Assembly (NCBI GenBank): GCA_002973635.1
Contig: CP027224.1
Span: 2,924,501 to 2,988,500 of the forward strand
DNA: 64,000 nt
Direction: 5' to 3'
Source of the DNA: Lysinibacillus sp. B2A1
GTDB taxonomy: Bacteria > Bacillota > Bacilli > Bacillales_A > Planococcaceae
Shown one piece after another: positions 11,659 through 24,491 of this stretch. The notes beneath the pieces were generated by a model. The model had not been told where the DNA came from and ran no database searches. It saw only the letters and a program-made list of their open reading frames with translations. The translations under genes were made by a program, and so were the position numbers. How positions within the stretch are numbered: the stretch's first letter is position 1; the number at the start of each line of letters is the position of its first letter.

Positions 11659-11831
11659 TATCTATCTTTATACATAATGAATATTCTTTATGACGTTCAA
11701 TTGATATATATCATATTTTACCTTATATGGATATATTCTCATATAATTTAGAAAATTTACATACTATTTAACCAGATTTTAACCTTCATCTTTTATAGTG
11801 ATTTATGTATAAAAGTAGAGGAGTGTTATTT

Positions 11832-13529
11832 TTGAAGGTAGTTAAAACAAACATTGTTGATTTACAGGAAGGATTGGTTCTTGGGCAAGATTTACATGTC
11901 GAAAACCGTCTGTTGATGAAAAGTGGAAGTGTATTAACATCGAGAATTATAACATTATTGAAAAATCGCCATGTTCACGATGTTTATATTCAGACACCGA
12001 TTGTAGAAACAGACCTTCATGCTGAACAGGATGTATTGTTAAGGGAAGATTACGATAAACAGCGTGATAATACCTTAATAAGTAGTAAGCCAGACAATTC
12101 TCTTTTTCTACAGGCATTAGGAGAATTGAGCACGGAGATTCGGTATGGTCATGTATTAAAAAATATGGACGATATACAGTTTATACGTAATTTATTTCAG
12201 CGCTATATGGAAAATAGCCATAATCGAAAACTGCTTACTGCGCTAAAAAATTATGACACATACACATATATGCATGCTATTGACGTATTTACATTATGTA
12301 CTCTATTTGCTAAAAAAGAAGGCATACAAAATTTAGAACATTGTGCCTTGGGATTTTTATTTCATGATATTGGGAAGCTGAAAATACCGCTAGCTCTTAT
12401 AAAAAAAGAGGGTAGACTTTCACCTAGTGAGTTTGAAGTCATGCAGACACATACACAGTTTGGCTATGAATTATTGTGCGATTTAGGACTTGAATCTATT
12501 GCCTATCTGGCTAAGTCACATCATGAGCGAATAGATGGCTCAGGATATCCAGAGGGGCTAGAGGAATCTGAAATACCTAGGGAAGTATTCATATTACAGC
12601 TAATCGATATATACTCAGCAATTACCTTAAATCGACCATATAAATGCGAGGTTGGGGCCGCAGAAGCAATGGCAATTATCTATAAAGAAAAGCATCTTCT
12701 TGATGAAAAGCTTCTTGCCAGATTTGTTGATTTTATTGGCATATATCCAGAAAATTCAATTGTGCTACTATCAGATGGTTCTCATGCTCTAGTAGACAAT
12801 GTCAATAATATGTATCCACTTCTACCTATTGTGAGAAGGTTAGATACAAATACAGTCTTTAGATTACCATTTGATTTCCAGCTTAAAGTAGTCAAGTTAA
12901 TTTCCTATTATGTTGAAACGCCAGAAAAGCTATTTCAGAAATTCTCTGAGTATCTCATGAATGGTGAAATTAATTTGATGGAAAAGTACTACCATCAGTT
13001 AATGGATCAGTATACGTTATATGAGTGCTTTACTAAAATATATATTCCAATCTACCAAATTTTTGATGTCATTGAACATCAACTAGTGATGGAGGATGTG
13101 CGCTTAAAGGCTATGCGTGAAACTCTAAAGGTACTGTTGCATAATATGCTGCTTCAATTACGAAGTGAAACAAGAAAAAAGGATGCTATACTTTTTATGG
13201 TAGACCAAGATTTACGAACAAATATTTTTATTCAGTTATTAGAAGGTTTATTTTATGCAAAAGAAATTTATCCATTTGTATTAGAGAGCTCAACTAGTAA
13301 GGAGGAGCTATTGAACATCGCAGATTATTGTGAGGCATCGGCAATTTGTGTATTTAGTAATGAATGCCTTGACCTTCATGGAACTACTCGAAAATTAGTG
13401 CAGTATCATATCACTCCAGAGAGGTTAGAGAGCTTTGTCTTCAGCTTTGCTGGAGAGTCACATAAAGAAGTAAATTTAAAAGATAAATTACAAAAATATA
13501 AAGCGGTTACAAAATTAATCGCCACATAA
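11832..13529 (+). CDS. HD-GYP domain protein with long C-terminal extension
   Basis: 565 residues. After an N-terminal segment typical of HD-GYP proteins (VKTNIVDLQEGLVLGQDLHV), the domain spans about residues 130-300 and keeps the hallmark residues: HDIGK at 178-182 and HHERIDGSGYPEG from H230. This family hydrolyses cyclic di-GMP (some members cyclic GMP-AMP) in a di- or tri-iron site. The last 260 residues match nothing I recognise and are mostly helical. TTG 11832 is preferred to ATG 11805 because AGAGGAG lies eight bases before it. The next gene starts 23 bp downstream and is the giant sensor kinase, so the two form an operon. Confidence 0.85.
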   Translation: MKVVKTNIVDLQEGLVLGQDLHVENRLLMKSGSVLTSRIITLLKNRHVHDVYIQTPIVETDLHAEQDVLLREDYDKQRDNTLISSKPDNSLFLQALGELSTEIRYGHVLKNMDDIQFIRNLFQRYMENSHNRKLLTALKNYDTYTYMHAIDVFTLCTLFAKKEGIQNLEHCALGFLFHDIGKLKIPLALIKKEGRLSPSEFEVMQTHTQFGYELLCDLGLESIAYLAKSHHERIDGSGYPEGLEESEIPREVFILQLIDIYSAITLNRPYKCEVGAAEAMAIIYKEKHLLDEKLLARFVDFIGIYPENSIVLLSDGSHALVDNVNNMYPLLPIVRRLDTNTVFRLPFDFQLKVVKLISYYVETPEKLFQKFSEYLMNGEINLMEKYYHQLMDQYTLYECFTKIYIPIYQIFDVIEHQLVMEDVRLKAMRETLKVLLHNMLLQLRSETRKKDAILFMVDQDLRTNIFIQLLEGLFYAKEIYPFVLESSTSKEELLNIADYCEASAICVFSNECLDLHGTTRKLVQYHITPERLESFVFSFAGESHKEVNLKDKLQKYKAVTKLIAT

Positions 13530-13552
13530 ATGAATAAGGGAGGCACATACTG

Positions 13553-16500
13553 GTGAATGATTGCATACTTTTACAAACGAAAGAAGATTGGAATTTGCAA
13601 AGAATGTATATAAATAAATTCAATAATTTAGTACTAGTAAAAAGTATTCATCATAATTCAGCTGAAAAGAGAGCTAGGCTGCAATATGAATTTTCATTGT
13701 TTGCGAACGAACAAAATCATTGGTTGTTAAAGCCAATAGCCATTGATTATATTGACAATCAATACGCAATCATTTATGAAAATTTTAATGGAGTACCCTT
13801 ACATGAGTTTAGAAATAATCATATTTCTTTACACCAATTTTTACAAATTGCGCTTGAACTTGTGAATGCCTGTATTAAAATGCAGCAAAGTGATTTACTC
13901 TATCTTGATTTTAATCCTAGCCAAATTTTAATTAATCCAAATTCATTAAAAGTAAAATTACTGAGTTCTGAATTCAGTTTAAAATATGGTGCAGAATCCC
14001 CCGTCATTATTGAAAATCCTTATGAACGACTTGAACAACTGCCATATTGTTCACCAGAACAAACTGGAAGAGTTAATTTAGAAATTGACCATCGTTCTGA
14101 TCTATATGCGCTTGGAATTATTTTTTACGAAATACTCAGTGGTCAATTACCTTTCCAAAAAAAAGACTCTGTTGATCTTATCTATGAAATTCTGACAAAA
14201 GTGCCGTATTCATTGGTAAATCTTCAGCCTTATTCCCATCCTATTATTTGGAGTATAGTAGAAAAATTATTAGCGAAAAATCCAGAATTACGCTATCAAA
14301 GTGCAGTTGGATTAAGAGAGGATTTATTACAAATTCAACACAAACTGTTAACTGATGAACCACTTCATGACTTCCAGTTGGGTACATATGACATTCATTT
14401 AAATGCGGTGCTTTCTACAAAGTTGTATGGTAGGAAGCAACAAATCACAGAACTTGCTTCTATGTTTCATCAAGTGGCAAATGGCGATAAAAAAATAGTA
14501 ATGATTTCAGGCAAAGCTGGGTCTGGAAAATCTAAACTCGTTTATACATTAAAGGGAGACATTGCTGCTGCTAAAGGGTATTTTGTAGAAATGAAGTATG
14601 AGCAATTACAACTAGAAAATGACTTTACACCTGTTGTACAACCTTTAAGAAATTTATTGAAGCTCGTTTATGTCGAAGGCGAAAAATCTGTTCAGACATT
14701 ACGTAAACTATTTCATGATGTAAAGTTAATGGTAACAGATCGACTCGTTTATTTACTACCAGAGCTTCGATGGTTTTTTAAAGAAGAAGTAGGTTTTCAG
14801 ACAGATGTACGTGAAAATGCCATGCAGCTACATACGTATATATTTAGTTCATTGCAAAAAATTTTATTAGCCTTTGCTATGCAAAAGAAACCGATCGTAT
14901 GGTTAATGGATGATTTACAATGGGCAAATGGTAGTACACTCGAGATGATGACTCAGCTATTTGAACAACATCGAGCGGGTTATTTTATGTGGGTAGCTAC
15001 GTTTCGTTCGAATGAGGAGGGAGATGTAAAAAAGAACTACAAGTATTTAAATAATTTCCAAGTAAATCAGCATATTGAGATAGATTTTCTTGAGGAAGAA
15101 GATGTACAGTTATGGCTGGAGGATTCATTACATGCTAAGCCAAATACTATTAAACTGATTTCTACACAATTATTTCGTTTGACAAAAGGGAATCCGTTAT
15201 TTGTGAAAGAAGCTTTTCGCTCCTTACAGCAAAATAATACTATTTATTTCAATACAGAAACAAAAGAGTGGCAATTTAGTATTCATAAATACAATCAGTC
15301 CTTTTTTAATAATGAATTACTGACTTTTATAGAAAATAGAATGGCTACACTAGATAAAGACGCCCAACGGATTTTGAGAATCATCTCTTGTTTTGGTCAA
15401 AGCTTTGAGTTTAGTTCCTTATTAAAGCTAGTTTCTATCTCAGCCCAAGATTTACTGAAGCTTTTGGGTGTACTTGTAGAGCATGGCTTTATTGTGCCAA
15501 TGGATGCCCATTTTAAATGGGCTAGTAAGTTCGAACATGAAGGTATTTTACATACATTTCATATGAAGTTTCAATTTGTACATGATCGTATTCAGCAAGT
15601 AGCTTATCAGGATTTATCTGAAAAAGAACGGACAAAGCTTCATTATCAAATCGGGAAATTACTAACGAGAAATATCCCGAATATAGTGGATAGCTATCAT
15701 TTAAGTGAAGTAGTGAAACATTTTAACTATGGTCAGCAATTGTTGAATGCTGACGAAAAACAAAATTTAGCAATATGGAATTATAAGCTGGGTATTGAGG
15801 CAAAAAGAATTGGGCTGTTTGACAGTGCCATCTCCTTCTTAACTACGAGTATAGAGCTGCTTCCAGATAATCATTGGAAGTCTTTTCGTGAAATGTCTGT
15901 AAAAATATATGCTAACTTAGGAGAGTGCGCATATTTAGTTGGACGTTATGATATATCAGAAATTCATTTATCGGAAGCATTACAGCATTCAAAAACAGTT
16001 TTAGAAAAGCTATTAATTTATAATTTAAAAACCTTGCTATATATCGAATCAGATAATCCCTTAGTAGGAGTTGAGGCTGGCATAGAAGGTCTGCAAATTA
16101 CCAATATGAATATTGCAGAGCATCCCTCAAAAATTCAACTTTTAAAGGAATACCTATTATTAAGAAAAGCTTTGCACAATAAGACTGATGTAGATCTTTT
16201 AAAGTTTCCACCAATTCAAAATAAAGAAATGGATACGTTAATTCATTTAATTATCAATATGACGGCAAGTACATTTTTGCTCAATCCTAATTTAACAGGT
16301 ATTTTATTAATGAGAGGGCTGCGACTACAGCTTAAATATGGGAACGGAACTAAAAGTGGTGTTGTGTATATTAACTATGCCATGCTTTTAAATGCTGGCT
16401 TTAATAATATTCAAGATTCTACACGCTTTGGAAAAATGGCAATCGCCTTTGCTGAGAATCAGAATAATATTTATATCAAAGGCCGTATATATTTTGTCTA

Positions 16501-18691
16501 TGGCATATTTATTAATCATTGGACAAATCCATATGAATCCAGTCTTCAATATATTCAAAAGGCTCAACACAATAGTCAGGAGATTGGCTTGCATCATTTG
16601 GTCTCTGCTGCTTCTTGTTTTATCGTAGCCATCCAATTCATTAATGGAACGCCTATTCAGGATTTACAGCAGGAAATTCAGCGCCAGCAGCAGGAGTTTT
16701 CCATTCATGCAAGTGCATTATCAATAGACTTTTTAGCTGAAATGGGGTTATGGATGAATGTGCTTCAAAATCCTGACTATCCTATTAACTGGTCATATCC
16801 TTTCGCTATATTAGACCAGCCCGTTATTAAAATGATGCATTATTCTGTTCGTTTGCAAATGTCATTCTTATTGGGTGATGAACAGCAAGGGAAAGAGTTA
16901 CTGGAGATATTGAAGGTGATAGAAAAAGAAATGTATACTTTGCCAATCACGCCTATTTTTTATTTTTATCGTGCTCTATGGCAATTTCATTTTATTCATC
17001 AAAAGCTATATTCCTCAAAAACAGAATTAAGAGCATATAGGGTGGAGATCAGTAAAAGTATTCGCGAATTTAAAAAATGGGCTCAATATGCACCTGAAAA
17101 CTATGAACATCTCTATTGTTTATTAGTAGCCGAGAATTATCGAATGAAAAAACAGAGTGAGAATGCCATTCTTTATTATGATCGGGCAATCCAGCTTGCA
17201 CAAATGAATAATTTTCTTCAAGATGCAGCTATTGCTTATGAACGAGCAGCTAACTACTATCATTCTATCCATAATAAAAAAACGGCCAGACATTATATTT
17301 TATGTGGTATACAGCTAATACAGGAGTGGGGAGCCAATACGATCGCTAGGCATTGGGAAAAGGTGTATCATGCCAATCACGTACCAAAAGGCCAAAGTAG
17401 TGGAACCGTATCATTTGATATGATGACTGTTTTCGAGACGACTCAGTCCTTAGCAACAGAAATCCGGATGGAGGATTTGCTTCGTAAAATATTATTTGCC
17501 TTATTAAAACATGCTGGTGCAGATATCGGGTATTTTATCTATAGACATCATGAGCAATTACAAGTGTTAGCACAAGCTGAGGCCAATGAAACTAAATTTA
17601 CGATGTTTCATGACCAAAAGATTGAAGAATTCAGTGAAACCATGCAATCCATTGTCTATTTTGTTTTACAAAGCGGAGAACAACTGATTATTCAAAATAC
17701 ACAATCACAGAGTGTTTATCTTAGTGCATTTTCAGCGGCTAAGTCTATCTTATGTGTGCCAATTCATCTTAAAGACGAGATTATAGCCATTTTATATTTG
17801 GAGAACACATTAATTACTAATGCCTTTCATCCAACGCATGTAAATTTGTTAAAAATGATCTCTGGCCAAATTGCTGTATCGATTGAAAATGCAAAAATAT
17901 ATGGTGAGTTAGAAAAACGTGTTCTTTCACGGACAAAGGAATTGGATGAAACAAATAGTCATTTGAAAAAGGTCAATGACCGATTAGAGAAAAATGAATT
18001 AGAACGGAAAAAATTATTGCATAGTATTTCACATGAACTACGCTCACCTATCACTTCAACCCTAGGTTATATCGAATTAATATTAGACGGGGTTATTAAA
18101 GAGGAATCAGAACAAGAGAAATATTTAATCCGTAGTAAGGAAAGGCTACTATCGTTAAATCTATTAATTCAAGATTTATTTGATTTAGCTAATCTAGAAG
18201 CGGGAAGAGCAGAATACACCTTTACAGAAGTAAGGGCTATTAATTTATTTCAACAATTTCGATTTCGCTTTGAACGAGAGATAAAGCAATTGGGCTTAGA
18301 CTATTATGCCGATTTTTACGGTCATCAGGAGGCTCAGCTGCTAATCGATCGTGCTCGAATAAATCAGTTGATGGAAAATTTAATGACAAATGCCATGAAA
18401 TATACTTCAAATGGCAGTATTCAATTTTTAATGTATGTGGAGGACACACATCTAATCTGTTCCATTTCAGATAGCGGCATAGGTATCCCACAGAGCGATA
18501 TTCCCTTTATATTCGATAGTTATTATCGAGCATCCAATGTTGATAAAGTAGATTCACACGGAATTGGCCTAGCTATTTGTAAGCAAATTGTGGAACAACA
18601 TAATGGGGAAATATATGTGGAAAGCATAGAGGATGAAGGGTCCATATTTAGCTTTACATTGCCATTAGTAACAGAAAAGATAACTGTTTAA
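13553..18691 (+). CDS. Giant kinase-like/ATPase/GAF/histidine kinase signalling protein
   Basis: 1712 residues in a multi-domain order known from so-called trifunctional kinases. Residues 1-265 are a Ser/Thr-kinase-like domain (Lys30; YLDFNPSQ in the catalytic loop; SPEQTGRVNLEIDHRSDLYA). Residues 290-600 are an AAA-type ATPase with Walker A GKAGSGKSK (about 320) and Walker B LMDDLQWANG (about 451). A long TPR-like helical region spans 700-1290 and a GAF domain about 1298-1450. A short coiled coil leads to a histidine kinase with phospho-acceptor His1494 (SHELRSP), N box NLMTNAMKY (about 1609), DSGIGIP (about 1643) and HGIGLAI (about 1668). No membrane helix was seen, so it is cytoplasmic. 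The kinase-like domain lacks the DFG Asp and may be inactive. The start is GTG 13553 after AAGGGAGG. Confidence 0.9.
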   Translation: MNDCILLQTKEDWNLQRMYINKFNNLVLVKSIHHNSAEKRARLQYEFSLFANEQNHWLLKPIAIDYIDNQYAIIYENFNGVPLHEFRNNHISLHQFLQIALELVNACIKMQQSDLLYLDFNPSQILINPNSLKVKLLSSEFSLKYGAESPVIIENPYERLEQLPYCSPEQTGRVNLEIDHRSDLYALGIIFYEILSGQLPFQKKDSVDLIYEILTKVPYSLVNLQPYSHPIIWSIVEKLLAKNPELRYQSAVGLREDLLQIQHKLLTDEPLHDFQLGTYDIHLNAVLSTKLYGRKQQITELASMFHQVANGDKKIVMISGKAGSGKSKLVYTLKGDIAAAKGYFVEMKYEQLQLENDFTPVVQPLRNLLKLVYVEGEKSVQTLRKLFHDVKLMVTDRLVYLLPELRWFFKEEVGFQTDVRENAMQLHTYIFSSLQKILLAFAMQKKPIVWLMDDLQWANGSTLEMMTQLFEQHRAGYFMWVATFRSNEEGDVKKNYKYLNNFQVNQHIEIDFLEEEDVQLWLEDSLHAKPNTIKLISTQLFRLTKGNPLFVKEAFRSLQQNNTIYFNTETKEWQFSIHKYNQSFFNNELLTFIENRMATLDKDAQRILRIISCFGQSFEFSSLLKLVSISAQDLLKLLGVLVEHGFIVPMDAHFKWASKFEHEGILHTFHMKFQFVHDRIQQVAYQDLSEKERTKLHYQIGKLLTRNIPNIVDSYHLSEVVKHFNYGQQLLNADEKQNLAIWNYKLGIEAKRIGLFDSAISFLTTSIELLPDNHWKSFREMSVKIYANLGECAYLVGRYDISEIHLSEALQHSKTVLEKLLIYNLKTLLYIESDNPLVGVEAGIEGLQITNMNIAEHPSKIQLLKEYLLLRKALHNKTDVDLLKFPPIQNKEMDTLIHLIINMTASTFLLNPNLTGILLMRGLRLQLKYGNGTKSGVVYINYAMLLNAGFNNIQDSTRFGKMAIAFAENQNNIYIKGRIYFVYGIFINHWTNPYESSLQYIQKAQHNSQEIGLHHLVSAASCFIVAIQFINGTPIQDLQQEIQRQQQEFSIHASALSIDFLAEMGLWMNVLQNPDYPINWSYPFAILDQPVIKMMHYSVRLQMSFLLGDEQQGKELLEILKVIEKEMYTLPITPIFYFYRALWQFHFIHQKLYSSKTELRAYRVEISKSIREFKKWAQYAPENYEHLYCLLVAENYRMKKQSENAILYYDRAIQLAQMNNFLQDAAIAYERAANYYHSIHNKKTARHYILCGIQLIQEWGANTIARHWEKVYHANHVPKGQSSGTVSFDMMTVFETTQSLATEIRMEDLLRKILFALLKHAGADIGYFIYRHHEQLQVLAQAEANETKFTMFHDQKIEEFSETMQSIVYFVLQSGEQLIIQNTQSQSVYLSAFSAAKSILCVPIHLKDEIIAILYLENTLITNAFHPTHVNLLKMISGQIAVSIENAKIYGELEKRVLSRTKELDETNSHLKKVNDRLEKNELERKKLLHSISHELRSPITSTLGYIELILDGVIKEESEQEKYLIRSKERLLSLNLLIQDLFDLANLEAGRAEYTFTEVRAINLFQQFRFRFEREIKQLGLDYYADFYGHQEAQLLIDRARINQLMENLMTNAMKYTSNGSIQFLMYVEDTHLICSISDSGIGIPQSDIPFIFDSYYRASNVDKVDSHGIGLAICKQIVEQHNGEIYVESIEDEGSIFSFTLPLVTEKITV

Positions 18692-18734
18692 AAATAAAGT
18701 GTTGAGCATTTTACGCTGCTCAGCACTTTATTTT
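18691..18734. terminator. Bidirectional intrinsic terminator
   Basis: Arms 18691-18708 and 18717-18734 (AAAATAAAGTGTTGAGCA with TGCTCAGCACTTTATTTT, one G-T pair) form an 18-bp stem. It overlaps the last bases of both convergent genes, the giant kinase and the response regulator. Confidence 0.9.
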
Positions 18735-19414
18735 TTATAAACAAATTGGTAACCGAAGCCCCGAACAGTTTGAATCCACTTAGGCTTAGCTGGAACGTCT
18801 TCGATTTTACGTCGGAGTGTACTTATATGGACAGAAACCGTTTTTGAATCAGTCACACCATCCTGTCCCCAAACGTTATCTATCAGTTGGTCTACACTAA
18901 TTACCTTATTAGCATGTTCGATTAGGAAAAATAATAGTAGCTTTTCTTTCGTAAAAAGATTTAAACGTTTACCGTTTTTATAAACATTTTTTTCATCAAA
19001 ATGAATAACTAAGTTATCAATATGTAATATAGGATTTCTTATGGACGTTGTCTTTCTTTTTAAGTTTGCTTGTATACGAGCAAGTAATTCTTTTGGAATA
19101 AACGGCTTTGTTATATAATCATCTGCGCCTACTTCAAAGCCTTCTAGTTTATGGTCAATTAAGTGATTGACAGTCACAAAAATAATAATGGCGTCCGAAA
19201 CTTCACGAATCCTTCTCGCCAATTCAAAGCCATTGCCATCAGGTAAATTGACATCCAATAAAATTAAATCAGGCTTTTGCTTTACTGCTGCTTCCCAACC
19301 TTCGTAAATGGTTGATGCCTTGAAAACTAAATAATTTGCATTTGCAATAGTAAGAGATAGAACCTCCATTATGTCAATATCATCTTCTACGATTAAGATT
19401 TTTTCATTTACCAC
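18728..19414 (-). CDS. OmpR/PhoB-family response regulator
   Basis: 228 residues. The receiver domain (1-118) has acidic residues Glu10-Asp11-Asp12, phospho-acceptor Asp54 (LILLDVNLPDG), a conserved Thr in FVTVNH and the KPF Lys. The C-terminal winged helix (about 130-226) carries VSVHISTLRRKIEDV and WIQTVRGFGYQFV, typical of OmpR/PhoB DNA binding. GTG 19414 follows AAAGGAG. No partner histidine kinase gene is adjacent on its strand. It converges on the giant kinase/HK gene, whose C-terminal histidine kinase is the closest candidate partner; this is an inference from position. Confidence 0.93.
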   Translation of the reverse strand: MVNEKILIVEDDIDIMEVLSLTIANANYLVFKASTIYEGWEAAVKQKPDLILLDVNLPDGNGFELARRIREVSDAIIIFVTVNHLIDHKLEGFEVGADDYITKPFIPKELLARIQANLKRKTTSIRNPILHIDNLVIHFDEKNVYKNGKRLNLFTKEKLLLFFLIEHANKVISVDQLIDNVWGQDGVTDSKTVSVHISTLRRKIEDVPAKPKWIQTVRGFGYQFVYKK

Positions 19415-19492: not shown

Positions 19493-20017
19493 TTATTTTT
19501 GACTAGGAAAAATCACATATGAAATACTTATGACGGCATCAATAGTTAATACGATGCTCCAAATTTTCATCATTTGAAATAGGGAAGATGTATCAGTTTG
19601 AGGTCCGATATAAAGACTCATTATATATAAAAGTCCAACACCAATGAGAAAAGCTATAACATGTCGAATAAGCATTTTTATCTCATGTTTACCTTTAGCA
19701 GCTCCTACAAGCCGTACTTTCTTGTCTTCGGTTTTGAAAAACCAACGCTGAAATAGCTCATCTGCCCAACTAATCATAGTTTTACCATAGGCAATAGAAA
19801 CACCAATATAAATAGCAGCAATCCCATGTGATATAGAAGCGGGAGTTCCTTTTTTTAAATCTACCGCAGTTAGCAATATCAGTAAGAAATCGATAACTAG
19901 TGTTAAAGATAATAAGAAGAGACTTAGCTTTGGTTTTTTTAAAATATAACGGGCTATCAACCCGAGTAAAATGACAATCCAAAAAGCAATTTCTGCTGCA
20001 ATAATCCATGCAATCAT
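19493..20017 (-). CDS. Integral membrane protein of unknown function
   Basis: 174 residues with about five hydrophobic helices (MIAWIIAAEIAFWIVILLG, LSLFLLSLTLVIDFLLILLT, HGIAAIYIGVSIAYGKTMIS, VIAFLIGVGLLYIMSLYIG and a last one near the C-terminus) and a charged loop containing ADELFQRWFFKTEDKK. It is similar in style to Bacillus YmcC-type membrane proteins, but I would not assign a function. ATG 20017 has a GGAGG site nine bases upstream; the longer frame to 20233 is only a read-through. It lies between the response regulator gene and another unknown gene, all on the minus strand. Confidence 0.75.
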   Translation of the reverse strand: MIAWIIAAEIAFWIVILLGLIARYILKKPKLSLFLLSLTLVIDFLLILLTAVDLKKGTPASISHGIAAIYIGVSIAYGKTMISWADELFQRWFFKTEDKKVRLVGAAKGKHEIKMLIRHVIAFLIGVGLLYIMSLYIGPQTDTSSLFQMMKIWSIVLTIDAVISISYVIFPSQK

Positions 20018-20096
20018 AAAAAACCTCCGACATTTAAAATAAGAAAAACATAGGCTTTTAACAACTAAGAAGAGATTCCGCTCATGATGTATCCAT

Positions 20097-20132
20097 GCAA
20101 TTGCCACCTCTTTAATCAAGGTGGGCAATTGC
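20097..20132. terminator. Hairpin overlapping the stop codon of the 154-aa gene
   Basis: GCAATTGCCACCT (20097-20109) pairs with AGGTGGGCAATTGC (20119-20132) with one bulged G, enclosing the gene's stop codon. No T tract follows on the minus strand, so it may stabilise the mRNA end or terminate poorly. Confidence 0.5.
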
Positions 20133-20576
20133 AAGAAGTATATCTTCACTGACAGCTTCCCAAAATTGCTGCTGTACAGTACTACAATACATATATACCT
20201 CTTTATTTTGAAGATGATTAAAGAGCTCGGCAATCACTTCTTTTTGAAATTGAAGTCGGTGATTTAATACCTCTCGCTCTTCTTCCAGACAAAAAGATTT
20301 ATATATATCTGTTAGACGCTCCAGCTTTGCCAGTTTTTGTTTTGTTACATCATATTGAGATTGGTGAAAGCGTCCCACAGCTGTAGTCATGGATCGCTTT
20401 GCACGATGCTCAGCATTTAACGTTCGATATTCTTCTAAACGCAACGCCACACGATACCAAAATTCGTAACGGCTAGGTAAGTCTCTAAGTTCATAGGTGA
20501 GCAAGGACTTTAAAATAAAAGCTACTTGTTCATATGTATCTATCAATTTTTCTGATTCTTTAAAAAGGCCAAACAT
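20112..20576 (-). CDS. Hypothetical cytoplasmic protein, helical
   Basis: 154 residues, strongly charged and almost entirely helical by eye (for example KLIDTYEQVAFILKSLLTYE, YDVTKQKLAKLERLTDIYK and LEEEREVLNHRLQFQKEVIA), with no membrane helix or signal peptide. I do not recognise the family. ATG 20576 has a GGGGGTGG stretch as ribosome site. A perfect-arm hairpin wraps its stop codon. It is the first of three minus-strand genes leading to the response regulator, but the gaps (about 95 and 80 bp) leave open whether they are one transcript. Confidence 0.65.
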   Translation of the reverse strand: MFGLFKESEKLIDTYEQVAFILKSLLTYELRDLPSRYEFWYRVALRLEEYRTLNAEHRAKRSMTTAVGRFHQSQYDVTKQKLAKLERLTDIYKSFCLEEEREVLNHRLQFQKEVIAELFNHLQNKEVYMYCSTVQQQFWEAVSEDILLAIAHLD

Positions 20577-20850: not shown

Positions 20851-21555
20851 ATGCAACATTTTTGGGTTGTTGGAACAGATACTGATGTTGGTAAAACAGC
20901 GGTCACCACATTGCTGATGCGTCAATTACAGCGGCAGAACCTACGCGTCACACCTTATAAGCCAGTACAAACTGGTGAAGTGCATGAAAATGATTGTTGC
21001 TATTACTATGATACAGCAATATATGAAAAGTATTCTTTACAGGTGCTGAAGCAAGAAAATTTGAATGGATATTCGTTTAAAGAGGCTGCTTCACCACATT
21101 TTGCTGCGCAACTGGAGGCGCAGGAAATAAATGTGAGCTATTTATTGCAGCAAATACAGTTGTTACAGCTATCAAACGACATAGTAATTTGTGAGGGAGC
21201 TGGAGGACTGTTTGTGCCCTTAGATTTAAAAAGTGAATTAACGCTTCTTGATGTCATTGTTCAAAGTAAGCTTCCAGTTGTTCTTGTTACTCGAACAACA
21301 CTTGGAACAATTAACCACACATTACTTACAATTGAGGCCTTGCTTACTCGGAATATTGATATTCTTGGCATTGTATTTAATGGAGATTCAGGGAGTTTGA
21401 TAGAACAAGATAATATGAAAACCATATTACAGTTTCAAGATTTGCCATATGCAAGTATTCCGCAATTCCAAGAGATTTCGCAGCTTGTTGATTATTCCAT
21501 TTCGCATACTTCATTGTTTGAAAGGTTGGTCAATTATGAAACAAGTGCTAACTGA
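20851..21555 (+). CDS. bioD: Dethiobiotin synthetase
   Basis: 234 residues. BioD closes the ureido ring of 7,8-diaminopelargonate with CO2 and ATP to give dethiobiotin, the third of the four late biotin steps. The P-loop GTDTDVGKT is at residues 8-16, and [13 protein letters not shown] and [15 protein letters not shown] are family motifs. ATG 20851 follows an AGAGGGGGAGG ribosome site. It is the first gene of the operon bioD-bioA-bioY-bioB under BirA control. The 3' end overlaps bioA by 20 bases. Confidence 0.95.
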
Positions 21556-22942
21556 TCTGCAGGCAAGAGATTTACGGCATGTTTGGCATCCTTGTTCACA
21601 AATGAAGGATTATGAGCAATTTCCACCTATCGTCATTAAAAAAGGACAAGGTGTATGGCTCTATGATGAAAATAATCATCGCTACTTAGACGCTGTCTCT
21701 TCCTGGTGGGTAAATTTATTTGGACATGCAAATCCTAGAATAAGTCAAGTGTTAAGTGATCAGGCATTTACATTAGAGCATACAATCTTTGCAAATTTCA
21801 CACATGAACCAGCGATTAAAGTAGCTGAAAAATTAGTAGCTTTAACGCCAGAGGGTCTGAATAAAGTATTTTTTGCAGACAATGGTTCGTCCGCAATAGA
21901 AGTCGCATTAAAGATGAGTTTTCAATATCATATGCAAACTGGAAAAACGGCGAAAAAACGCTATTTAGCTTTAACGGATGCCTACCATGGTGAGACACTT
22001 GGTGCATTATCTGTTGGGGGAGTTGGGCTTTATAATGAAGTATACCAACCATTGTTATTAGATACAGTACGTGCACAAGGACCAGATTGCTTTAGATGTC
22101 CTTTTCAAGACAAGCTAGAAAGCTGTCATGCTCAATGTATTCAATTTGTTGAAGAAGAGCTTAACACGCATCATGAAGAAATTACAGCTGTGATTATTGA
22201 GCCGCTTATTCAAGCAGCAGCTGGCATGAAAATGTATCCGCCAATCTATTTAAAGCGATTACGAGAGCTTTGCACAGCATACGATGTTCACTTAATTGCA
22301 GACGAAATTGCCGTTGGATTTGGACGAACAGGAACCATATTTGCCTGTGAGCAAGCGGGGATTGCACCAGATTTTATGTGCTTGTCTAAAGGTTTAACAG
22401 GTGGCTATTTACCGCTATCGGCTGTATTAACCACTGATGACATTTACAATGCCTTTTATGATGATTACGGAACAATGAGAGCTTTTTTACATTCTCATAG
22501 CTATTCTGGAAATCCGCTTGCTTGTCGTGTAGCACTTGAGGTATTGACAATGTTTGAAGAGGAGCAGGTTATCGACATGATTCAAAATAAGGGAGAACGA
22601 ATGCGTGCGTTAGCATTGGAGGCATTTGAGCGATTACCCTATGTTGGAGAGTATCGACAGATAGGATTAGTAGGTGCGATTGAGCTAGTAGCCAATCATC
22701 GAACAAAGGAGCCATTTCCAAGTGAGGCGCGTATTGGCTATCAAATTTATCAACGTGCTTTAGCAAAGGGCTTACTGATTCGCCCGCTTGGCAATACATT
22801 ATATTTTATGCCGCCTTACATTATTTCTGACGATGAAATGCACTTTATGGTTCATACAACAAAAGAAACGATTGTACAATTTTTTGAGGATTGGGAGGGG
22901 TTAAATTGTTTAAACGACAATCAACACAGTCACTTGTCATGA
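21536..22942 (+). CDS. bioA: Adenosylmethionine-8-amino-7-oxononanoate aminotransferase
   Basis: 468 residues, a class III PLP-dependent aminotransferase that converts KAPA to 7,8-diaminopelargonate. The N-terminus [20 protein letters not shown] is typical of BioA. The PLP lysine is Lys285 in [14 protein letters not shown], preceded by [14 protein letters not shown]. The SAM versus lysine donor cannot be told from sequence. ATG 21536 lies inside the end of bioD after GAAAGG; the longer frame from 21449 is an overlap artefact. The C-terminus overlaps the bioY start, so the operon is translationally coupled throughout. Confidence 0.95.
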
Positions 22943-23496
22943 TCGCGATGTTTGCAGCTTTAACGGCAATTGGTGCATTTATTAAAATACCCTTACCTGT
23001 AGTGCCCTTTACACTACAAATTGTCTTTGTTTTTTTAGCTGGAAGCTTACTTGGCAGTCGTAATGGATTTCAAAGTCAGCTCGTTTACATAGGGGTTGGT
23101 TTAGTTGGATTACCTGTTTTTACACAGGGGGGAGGCATTACCTATGTATTGCAGCCGACATTTGGCTACCTTATAGGGTTTGCACTAGCAGCATTCATAA
23201 TAGGTTTCATCATTGAAAGAGTAGATTCGCCAATGAAAATACATTTTATTGGTGCAAATATTGTGGGGCTTATTCTTATTTATGCGGTTGCAGTACCTTA
23301 CTTATATTTATCATTGAATTTTTGGCTTCACATGAAAACGAGCTGGTCTCATATATTTGTAGTCGGCTTTTTAAATAGTATTGTTGCAGATTTTTGCTTA
23401 GCCATTGCTTCTGCACTGCTAGCCGAACGCTTATATAAGGTATTTCAGTCAGTTAGAGCAGCGAAAATTATGCAAATAGAAAGGGAGAATGTTTAG
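22906..23496 (+). CDS. bioY: Biotin transporter BioY
   Basis: 196 residues, the substrate-binding S component of the biotin ECF transporter, with about six membrane helices. The N-terminal [20 protein letters not shown] and the following [20 protein letters not shown] are BioY signatures. It may work alone or with an energy-coupling module encoded elsewhere. The start is TTG 22906 with GGGAGGGG upstream, inside the end of bioA; an in-frame TTG at 22891 precedes that ribosome site. Having a transporter inside the synthesis operon lets BirA co-regulate uptake and synthesis. Confidence 0.93.
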
Positions 23497-24491
23497 TGGA
23501 TTGGTTACAGTTAGCAGAGGGCGTTATTGCAGGAAAGATGATTAGTAATGACGAGGCTCTTGCCATGTTAAATAGTGATGATGATGAGCTTTTAAAGATA
23601 ATAGCTGGTGCATTCGCCATTCGTAAGCATTATTATGGCAAAAAAGTAAAATTAAATATGATTATGAATGCGAAAAGTGGTTATTGTCCAGAGGATTGTG
23701 GCTACTGTTCACAGTCATCCAAATCATCTGCTCCGATTGAAAAATATCCATTCATTACGAAGGAGGAAATTTTAGAGGGTGCCAAACGAGCATTTGACAA
23801 TAAAATTGGTACCTATTGCATCGTGGCAAGTGGACGAGGACCAACACGGAAGGATGTCAATGTTGTAAGTGAAGCAGTCGCTGAAATTAAAGAGAAGTAT
23901 GGCTTAAAAGTATGTGCTTGTCTTGGCTTATTAAAAGAAGAACAGGCACAGCAATTAAAAGAGGCGGGGGTAGATCGCTACAATCATAATTTAAATACTT
24001 CAGAGCGTCATCACTCATTCATTACAACATCGCATACCTATGAAGATCGTGTGAACACGGTAGAGATTGCAAAAAAGCATGGTATTTCACCGTGCTCAGG
24101 AGCAATCATTGGGATGAGGGAGACTAAAGAGGATGTCGTCAACATTGCGCGTGCACTCCATCAATTAGATGCTGATTCGATCCCAGTCAATTTTTTAAAT
24201 GCTATTGACGGCACGAAGCTGGAAGGAACAAAGGAATTAAATCCTCGTTATTGTTTAAAGGTTTTAGCATTGTTCCGCTATATTAATCCAACAAAGGAAA
24301 TTCGTATTTCTGGTGGTCGTGAAGTCAATCTTGGGTCGCTTCAGCCACTTGGGATGTATGCAGCAAACAGCATTTTTGTCGGAGATTATTTAACGACAGC
24401 AGGTCAAGAGGCAAATAGCGATTATCGTATGCTTGAGGATTTAGGCTTTGAAATTGAATTAACAGAAAAGCAGGAAGAAGTATTCTGCTAA
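23496..24491 (+). CDS. bioB: Biotin synthase
   Basis: 331 residues, a radical SAM enzyme inserting sulfur into dethiobiotin in the last step of biotin synthesis. The [4Fe-4S] motif C-x3-C-x2-C is Cys64, Cys68 and Cys71 (CPEDCGYCSQS). Later features YNHNLNTSERHH and RISGGREVNLGSLQPLG are family-typical, the latter holding the Arg ligand of the [2Fe-2S] cluster. GTG 23496 shares its first base with the bioY stop codon. bioF and bioW/bioI-type pimeloyl genes are not here, so early steps must be encoded elsewhere or the precursor is imported. Confidence 0.97.
   Translation: MDWLQLAEGVIAGKMISNDEALAMLNSDDDELLKIIAGAFAIRKHYYGKKVKLNMIMNAKSGYCPEDCGYCSQSSKSSAPIEKYPFITKEEILEGAKRAFDNKIGTYCIVASGRGPTRKDVNVVSEAVAEIKEKYGLKVCACLGLLKEEQAQQLKEAGVDRYNHNLNTSERHHSFITTSHTYEDRVNTVEIAKKHGISPCSGAIIGMRETKEDVVNIARALHQLDADSIPVNFLNAIDGTKLEGTKELNPRYCLKVLALFRYINPTKEIRISGGREVNLGSLQPLGMYAANSIFVGDYLTTAGQEANSDYRMLEDLGFEIELTEKQEEVFC

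Follow-up and report, generated by a model that had tools for sequence, protein, structure and literature searches.

Several groups of very large kinases resemble the protein described here. Cyanobacterial dual Ser/Thr-His kinases (cbSTKIII, HstK of Anabaena) are described as cytoplasmic proteins that combine a Ser/Thr-kinase domain, a GAF domain and a C-terminal histidine kinase in one chain (PMC2176072, PMC1262709). A 2025 review groups cytoplasmic Ser/Thr (pseudo)kinases with a linked predicted ATPase and GAF or PAS domains as CP1, states that about 40% of them are pseudokinases and that they occur mainly in cyanobacteria and proteobacteria, and presents their role as almost unreported (PMC12599244). 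In fungi, the histidine kinases Chk1, Mak2 and Mak3 contain S_Tkc, AAA-16, GAF and histidine kinase domains in this order (PMC9069115). Here, we analyze a 64,000-nucleotide stretch of the Lysinibacillus sp. B2A1 genome (contig CP027224.1, positions 2,924,501 to 2,988,500; hereafter the window), which encodes a 1712-residue kinase of this kind next to a putative HD-GYP phosphodiesterase and an OmpR-type response regulator. The genome is a single contig of 5,508,835 bases. Our analysis suggests that these three genes are likely to form one self-regulating circuit, which would switch on surface proteins through a predicted DNA box.

The window kinase shares with HstK and the cbSTKIII proteins the N-terminal kinase fold, the GAF domain, the C-terminal HisKA/HATPase pair and the cytoplasmic location described for them (PMC2176072, PMC1262709). 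It differs from them in having lost the kinase motifs that they mostly keep, and in having a fixed regulator partner, a predicted DNA site and an HD-GYP operon partner. Its degraded kinase motifs, AAA_16 domain, GAF domain and lack of an obvious membrane span agree in kind with the CP1 pseudokinases, whose linked ATPase is of the COG3899 type, as the review describes them (PMC12599244). The domain order equals that reported for Chk1, Mak2 and Mak3; the fungal proteins, however, include a receiver domain (PMC9069115), whereas Pfam finds no Response_reg in the window kinase and the receiver is part of the separate OmpR-type regulator. An initial annotation, made from the letters of the window alone, had described the layout as best known from cyanobacteria and other large-genome bacteria; full-length relatives of the window kinase include cyanobacterial proteins at 25–28% identity. 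As far as these accounts describe it, the giant-kinase architecture itself is already known from cyanobacteria and fungi; new are the DNA box and the regulon attached to it. In the open-licence literature on the box sequence, on HD-GYP proteins with B12-binding, on Lysinibacillus HD-GYP or S-layer-homology (SLH)/two-component systems, and on PhoP with the S-layer, we found nothing on this system.

The three-gene locus and its inheritance

The locus comprises the following features, given in window positions.

11756..11784, forward strand: direct repeats predicted to bind the regulator; the stretch 11767-11784 matches TTTAACC-N4-TTTAACC exactly and is preceded by a third, weaker copy (TTTACAT) from 11756, with 11-bp spacing throughout
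11794..11799, forward strand: predicted −10 element TATAGT, 9 bp past the box
11832..13529, forward strand: predicted HD-GYP phosphodiesterase gene, 565 amino acids (aa) from TTG 11832, with the Shine–Dalgarno sequence GAGGAG at 11818-11823 (open reading frame (ORF) and Pfam HD_5/HD)
12897..13526, forward strand: C-terminal domain of the HD-GYP protein (residues 356-565), with likeness to a degenerate cobalamin-binding (cap plus Rossmann) module by hhalign
13553..18691, forward strand: pseudokinase–AAA_16–TPR–GAF–histidine kinase, 1712 aa (ORF and Pfam)
13553..14362, forward strand: predicted pseudokinase domain, about residues 1-270; glycine loop, catalytic-loop Lys/Asn and DFG Asp absent
14420..14995, forward strand: AAA_16 (STAND-type) ATPase, residues 290-481; Walker A and B intact
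17468..17884, forward strand: GAF domain, residues 1306-1444 (Pfam)
18005..18667, forward strand: HisKA (residues 1485-1551) and HATPase_c (1599-1705) by Pfam; phosphoacceptor His in SISHELRSP from residue 1491
18690..18735, no strand: hairpin with T/A flanks between the convergent kinase and regulator genes; minimum free energy −23.8 kcal/mol, fold z −7.9
18728..19414, reverse strand: OmpR/PhoB-type response regulator (Pfam Response_reg and Trans_reg_C); receiver (REC) residues 6-115, winged helix 148-224, Asp54

ORFs and Pfam confirm the proposed layout of three genes, with 23 nt between the end of the HD-GYP gene and the start of the kinase gene and a convergent OmpR-type regulator, and the translations contain the HDIGK and HHERIDGSGYP motifs of the HD-GYP protein and Asp54 of the regulator. 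Pfam matches in the 1712-aa protein are Pkinase, AAA_16, TPR_1/TPR_2, GAF, HisKA and HATPase_c. Its highest 19-residue mean hydropathy is 1.64, with no obvious membrane span, in keeping with the cytoplasmic location first assigned to it. The HD-GYP gene has an alternative start, ATG 11805, with the same end at 13529; TTG 11832 is likelier because the predicted −10 element lies at 11794-11799 and GAGGAG at 11818-11823. The regulator combines a receiver domain bearing the phospho-Asp, Asp54, with Trans_reg_C, the combination by which OmpR/PhoB proteins are recognized; it matches several NCBIfam regulator models, none of them above its own cut-off among the 25 matches listed. The hairpin at 18690-18735 is a probable bidirectional terminator.

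Kinase and regulator genes occur together across the family. In a sample of 151 family genomes (thresholds E ≤ 1e-60 for the kinase and E ≤ 1e-68 for the regulator), the kinase was found in 23 genomes and the regulator in 22, which are exactly those with a full-length kinase. In the 23rd kinase genome, G059, an ORF read as a transposase by sequence separates a kinase fragment of 614 aa from a regulator fragment of 103 aa; here (L087), the whole circuit appears to be caught in mid-decay. The regulator gene adjoins the kinase gene in 16 of the 22 genomes, convergently in 14 and directly upstream in the same direction in two (G080, G070). Six g14 genomes retain both genes, with the regulator at a separate locus near leuS (about 158 kb from the kinase in G073), and in five of these six the regulator is convergent with an HD-GYP paralogue. 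Three kinase-less g14 genomes (G048, G101, G126) have the HD-GYP paralogue at the same site and no regulator, and in G005 and G089 the genes next to the regulator resemble, by eye, galE and polysaccharide-modification genes. A leuS tree built from 30 chosen genomes shows at least six changes of state for the kinase, matched by the regulator in six of six independent pairs (p 0.031). Such co-inheritance supports a cognate relationship between the two.

The HD-GYP gene is adjacent to the kinase gene in six of the 22 genomes, upstream in G000, G033, G073, G083 and G150 and downstream in G080, and decayed HD-GYP pieces lie upstream of the kinase in five more (G049, G127, G121, G032, G120). The six linked genes, from three genera, belong to one supported clade (100/99) of 13 rows, which also includes six database rows labelled as linked by orthology alone and one unlinked g10 gene. 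These relationships support membership of the HD-GYP gene in the kinase–regulator circuit in several genera. Decay of the HD-GYP gene in several lineages has left the two-component core and its site in place. A late gain of the HD-GYP gene beside the kinase was considered and rejected, given the upstream remnants and the single supported clade. The neighborhood that the initial annotation had put forward as its own test is conserved in relatives, in 16 of 22 genomes for the regulator and in six of 22 for the HD-GYP gene.

The direct-repeat box and its candidate regulon

Regulators of the OmpR family share direct-repeat binding sites, and an 11-bp repeat is the geometry of the class. The window regulator resembles PhoB/OmpR-type proteins in its receiver and winged-helix domains and, by prediction, in its site. 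Its predicted box, TTTAACC-N4-TTTAACC, was first spotted by comparing upstream regions. The window genome contains nine exact copies, compared with one of the reversed pattern, and a majority of the nine are followed at fixed spacing by a −10 element that is absent from the search pattern. The copy at 11767-11784 is the sole exact one within the window, where loose matches occur at chance level. Among 41 chosen genomes, the 22 with the regulator have 91 exact boxes, whereas the 19 without it have five (reversed control, four versus two).

We fetched 57 exact and three one-mismatch sites from 13 genomes. In the exact sites, the two positions directly after the box are T in 98% and 96% of cases, and T (96%) at +10, A (98%) at +11 and T (94%) at +15 follow. 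Positions +10 to +15 read TANNNT in nearly all of these sites; they are a −10 element at a fixed distance from the box and are no part of the search pattern. Given this fixed distance, the box would span roughly −39 to −22, the placement expected of an activator that stands in for the −35 contact; the −35 position falls under the box, and these promoters have no good −35 box. With at most one mismatch, the extended pattern was found in 22 of 22 regulator genomes (122 sites), compared with 20 of 129 without the regulator (44 sites), and the reversed control gave none among the genomes listed. Two near sisters differ in the same way: G120 has the regulator and four extended sites, and G126 has no regulator and at most one site.

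Allowing one mismatch at most, a box lies upstream of the kinase operon in 18 of the 22 genomes (14 exact, four with one mismatch) and upstream of the HD-GYP gene in all six linked cases, G080 included. A first downstream gene could be called at 58 of the 60 fetched sites. Signal-peptide-like N-termini, assigned by a simple hydropathy rule, are present in 38 of these 58 genes versus 127 of 718 background ORFs, with a Fisher p of 3e-14, an underestimate since both sets contain orthologues. Of the target proteins, 30 were selected for Pfam analysis, and SLH domains are present in half of them (15). Other families in this set are phage-collar, collagen, cadherin-like, Ig-like and Listeria-Bacteroides repeat domains, as well as nucleotide-sugar dehydrogenase, polysaccharide deacetylase, epimerase, chemotaxis-receptor and FecR; six of the 30 have no Pfam family. 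In G080 (L319:7339-7563), a box stands before an ORF that is flagellin-like by eye, so that the g10 regulon may reach motility.

Alternative explanations for the box, the HD-GYP gene and the kinase domain

Several observations weigh against the proposed circuit. Four of the 22 genomes (G005, G070, G080, G089) have no box before the kinase, and the g14 regulator promoter has none at up to two mismatches; among 17 loci searched at this tolerance, no box was found near the regulator, and the only matches were two overlapping two-mismatch ones near the G049 HD-GYP paralogue. Some boxes have no plausible gene nearby. Treated as a tree trait, a box count of 2 or 3 agrees in three to five of six independent pairs, with one opposite in some pairings and p never reaching 0.05. 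The HD-GYP gene has neither a copy nor a remnant beside the kinase in 11 of the 22 genomes. As to regulator-free genomes, 36 of their 44 extended sites fall in 13 of the 16 g8 genomes; outside g8, eight sites occur in seven of 113 genomes. At the thresholds used, g8 is without kinase and regulator and still has its 36 sites, and therefore some other protein can use a similar site there. Six g8 loci from three genomes (L310–L315; G130, G007, G142) have such sites before genes that appear, by eye, to be exopolysaccharide-like and surface genes, and none of their ORFs is a relative of the three window proteins. The −10 element of the g8 direct-repeat promoters is often TAGTAT or TAGGAT. In two further regulator-free genomes, G074 and G109, a site with one mismatch precedes a gene that resembles, at its N-terminus, the SLH-GDSL target of the window genome.

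These g8 sites, and the direct-repeat sites common to OmpR-family regulators, would fit binding of the box by another member of the OmpR/PhoB family, such as a PhoP-like regulator, with the kinase–regulator pair controlling something else. We consider this distinctly unlikely: the number of sites tracks the regulator studied here across the 41 genomes, the kinase operon itself has the site in most genomes, and G120 and G126 differ as expected. Somewhat more weight, though still well short of probable, goes to the HD-GYP protein as a passenger that shares an operon with the kinase and has no role in the same circuit. Its absence or decay in genomes that keep kinase and regulator, and the presence of HD-GYP paralogues in many kinase-less genomes, fit such a passenger; the single clade of linked genes from three genera, the box upstream of every linked gene, including the G080 gene, which follows the kinase and has its own site, and the position of the g14 regulator next to an HD-GYP paralogue argue for a part in the circuit. 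The reading that we prefer remains one circuit of three genes in which the regulator would act through the box. G080 (L082:6943-10079) has, after the downstream HD-GYP gene, a further, degenerate HD-GYP-like gene that shares its C-terminal domain; a one-mismatch box stands before each of the two. In three genomes (L088, L093, L158), HD-GYP paralogues of this family neighbor a gene that by eye encodes a large LuxR-type regulator (833-852 aa), ATP-binding and rich in helices.

The nature of the N-terminal kinase domain was judged from the best 120 of 562 relatives, aligned with MAFFT and split into the nearest 47, whose named organisms are Lysinibacillus, Metasolibacillus, Viridibacillus, Solibacillus and Peribacillus, and 73 more distant ones, which include cyanobacteria and myxobacteria. 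Some of the distant relatives have a GGDEF/EAL, adenylate cyclase or phosphatase domain in place of the histidine kinase. At the DFG Asp position, 70 of the 73 distant proteins have D, whereas 42 of the 47 nearest have S, A or G; at the HRD His position, all 73 distant proteins have H, which does not rank among the frequent letters in the near group. The near group keeps the Walker A and B and histidine-kinase motifs, with all 47 proteins retaining the Walker A glycines and Lys and 46 of the 47 the phosphoacceptor His. If the N-terminal domain had remained a working Ser/Thr kinase despite its unusual motifs, the protein would be a true dual kinase; this would agree with a Pfam Pkinase match above its cut-off, with the retention in the window protein of a beta-3 Lys and of the HRD Asp, and with the activity of some atypical kinases. 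The window protein has, however, no glycine loop; its catalytic loop reads YLDFNPSQ, in which the Asp is kept and Lys and Asn are replaced by Asn and Gln, and its DFG is SEF, with Ser for Asp. Together with the lineage-wide change in the DFG column, this motif loss led us to reject an active Ser/Thr kinase, which we regard as highly improbable. Because the glycine loop, the catalytic Lys/Asn and the DFG Asp are lost, the domain is, judged by its motifs, a pseudokinase in this lineage, and the protein is not a dual kinase. The initial annotation was right, by Pfam, to join Ser/Thr-kinase-like, AAA, TPR-like, GAF and histidine kinase domains in one protein, and its circuit finds support in the co-inherited kinase–regulator pair and in an HD-GYP partner in several genera; signaling through phosphorylation by the Ser/Thr-kinase domain is left unsupported. 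A second, more distant giant-kinase copy (30-35% identity) with no regulator or HD-GYP gene alongside is present in G073 (L084) and G083 (L086).

The HD-GYP protein, the proposed circuit and neighboring genes

The window HD-GYP protein contains the full set of HD-GYP motifs (HD, HDIGK, HHE..GYP and the downstream Asp ligands), as supported by alignments to PDB entries: its metal-ligand and GYP motifs align with those of the HD-GYP phosphodiesterases PmGH (4mcw), PA4781 (4r8z) and V-cGAP3 (5z7c). In an alignment of 25 rows, H148, HD178-179, K182, H231 and D259 are invariant, and H207 and H230 are conserved in at least 90%. The window genome has 22 GGDEF matches, and cyclic di-GMP signaling is therefore likely there.

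Unlike the three structurally characterized proteins, the window protein has an additional C-terminal domain, some 210 residues long, to which Pfam assigns no clear family. Compared by hhalign with a set of Bacillota MerR/PpaA-like cobalamin-binding proteins, this domain gave 94.9% with a score of 56 over 141 gapless columns, whereas 120 shuffled profiles reached at most 26.6 and eleven unrelated profiles at most 18.7. A MetH profile did not match (0.4%), and a PDB profile search was empty up to E 10. Pfam B12-binding_2 is found weakly in two of 14 members of the domain (best E 0.008), and the unrelated Spo16_C scores equally. The cobalt-ligating His column (DxHxxG) is H in 20 of 20 B12 rows, and its commonest letters in 33 HD-GYP rows are E, T, N and A; both the DxHxxG His and the cap W..EH are gone from the HD-GYP domain. 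We consider it reasonably probable that the C-terminus resembles a degenerate cobalamin-binding domain. Database searches with the domain returned 14 and 81 close relatives; it is present in three of 299 genomes of a class-wide sample, all from the genus of the window genome, and in the family sample full-length HD-GYP relatives occur in g14, g10, g5 and g3.

Taken together, these results suggest the following circuit. The pseudokinase, the STAND-type ATPase with its TPR-like helices and the GAF domain may sense or relay some internal signal and so control the C-terminal histidine kinase, which would pass phosphate to Asp54 of the regulator. The regulator would then bind the TTTAACC-N4-TTTAACC repeats and activate transcription from the −10 element 9 bp downstream, at its own HD-GYP–kinase operon and at genes whose products are exported proteins of the surface and matrix, chiefly SLH proteins. 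Induction would raise the HD-GYP phosphodiesterase and thereby lower cyclic di-GMP as the surface changes, acting as feedback or as a switch. A more far-reaching interpretation is tentative, and we hold it to be possible rather than probable: the kinase may be a master surface sensor of Lysinibacillus and its relatives, in which an allosteric, ATP-driven and non-phosphorylating N-terminus gates a two-component switch that installs S-layer-anchored adhesins and matrix genes, together with an HD-GYP protein under the same type of promoter, whose repurposed cobalamin-type domain tunes cyclic di-GMP. If so, the system would provide a complete path from input to regulon for this class of giant kinases. 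Such kinase–ATPase–GAF–histidine kinases span cyanobacteria to fungi, and the role of the pseudokinase kind is, by the account of the review, almost unknown (PMC12599244). Cultivable soil bacteria now offer a partner regulator, a DNA site, a promoter geometry and a gene list, which opens the question to direct experiment, and a cyclic-dinucleotide phosphodiesterase would be tied to an S-layer/adhesin regulon.

Near the regulator, window positions 19493-20576 contain two genes (246 and 154 aa) for which neither Pfam nor NCBIfam gives a match at E 0.01. A biotin cluster (bioD-, bioA-, bioY- and bioB-like by eye; 20851-24491) adjoins the circuit, and it neighbors the kinase in several g1 genomes too.

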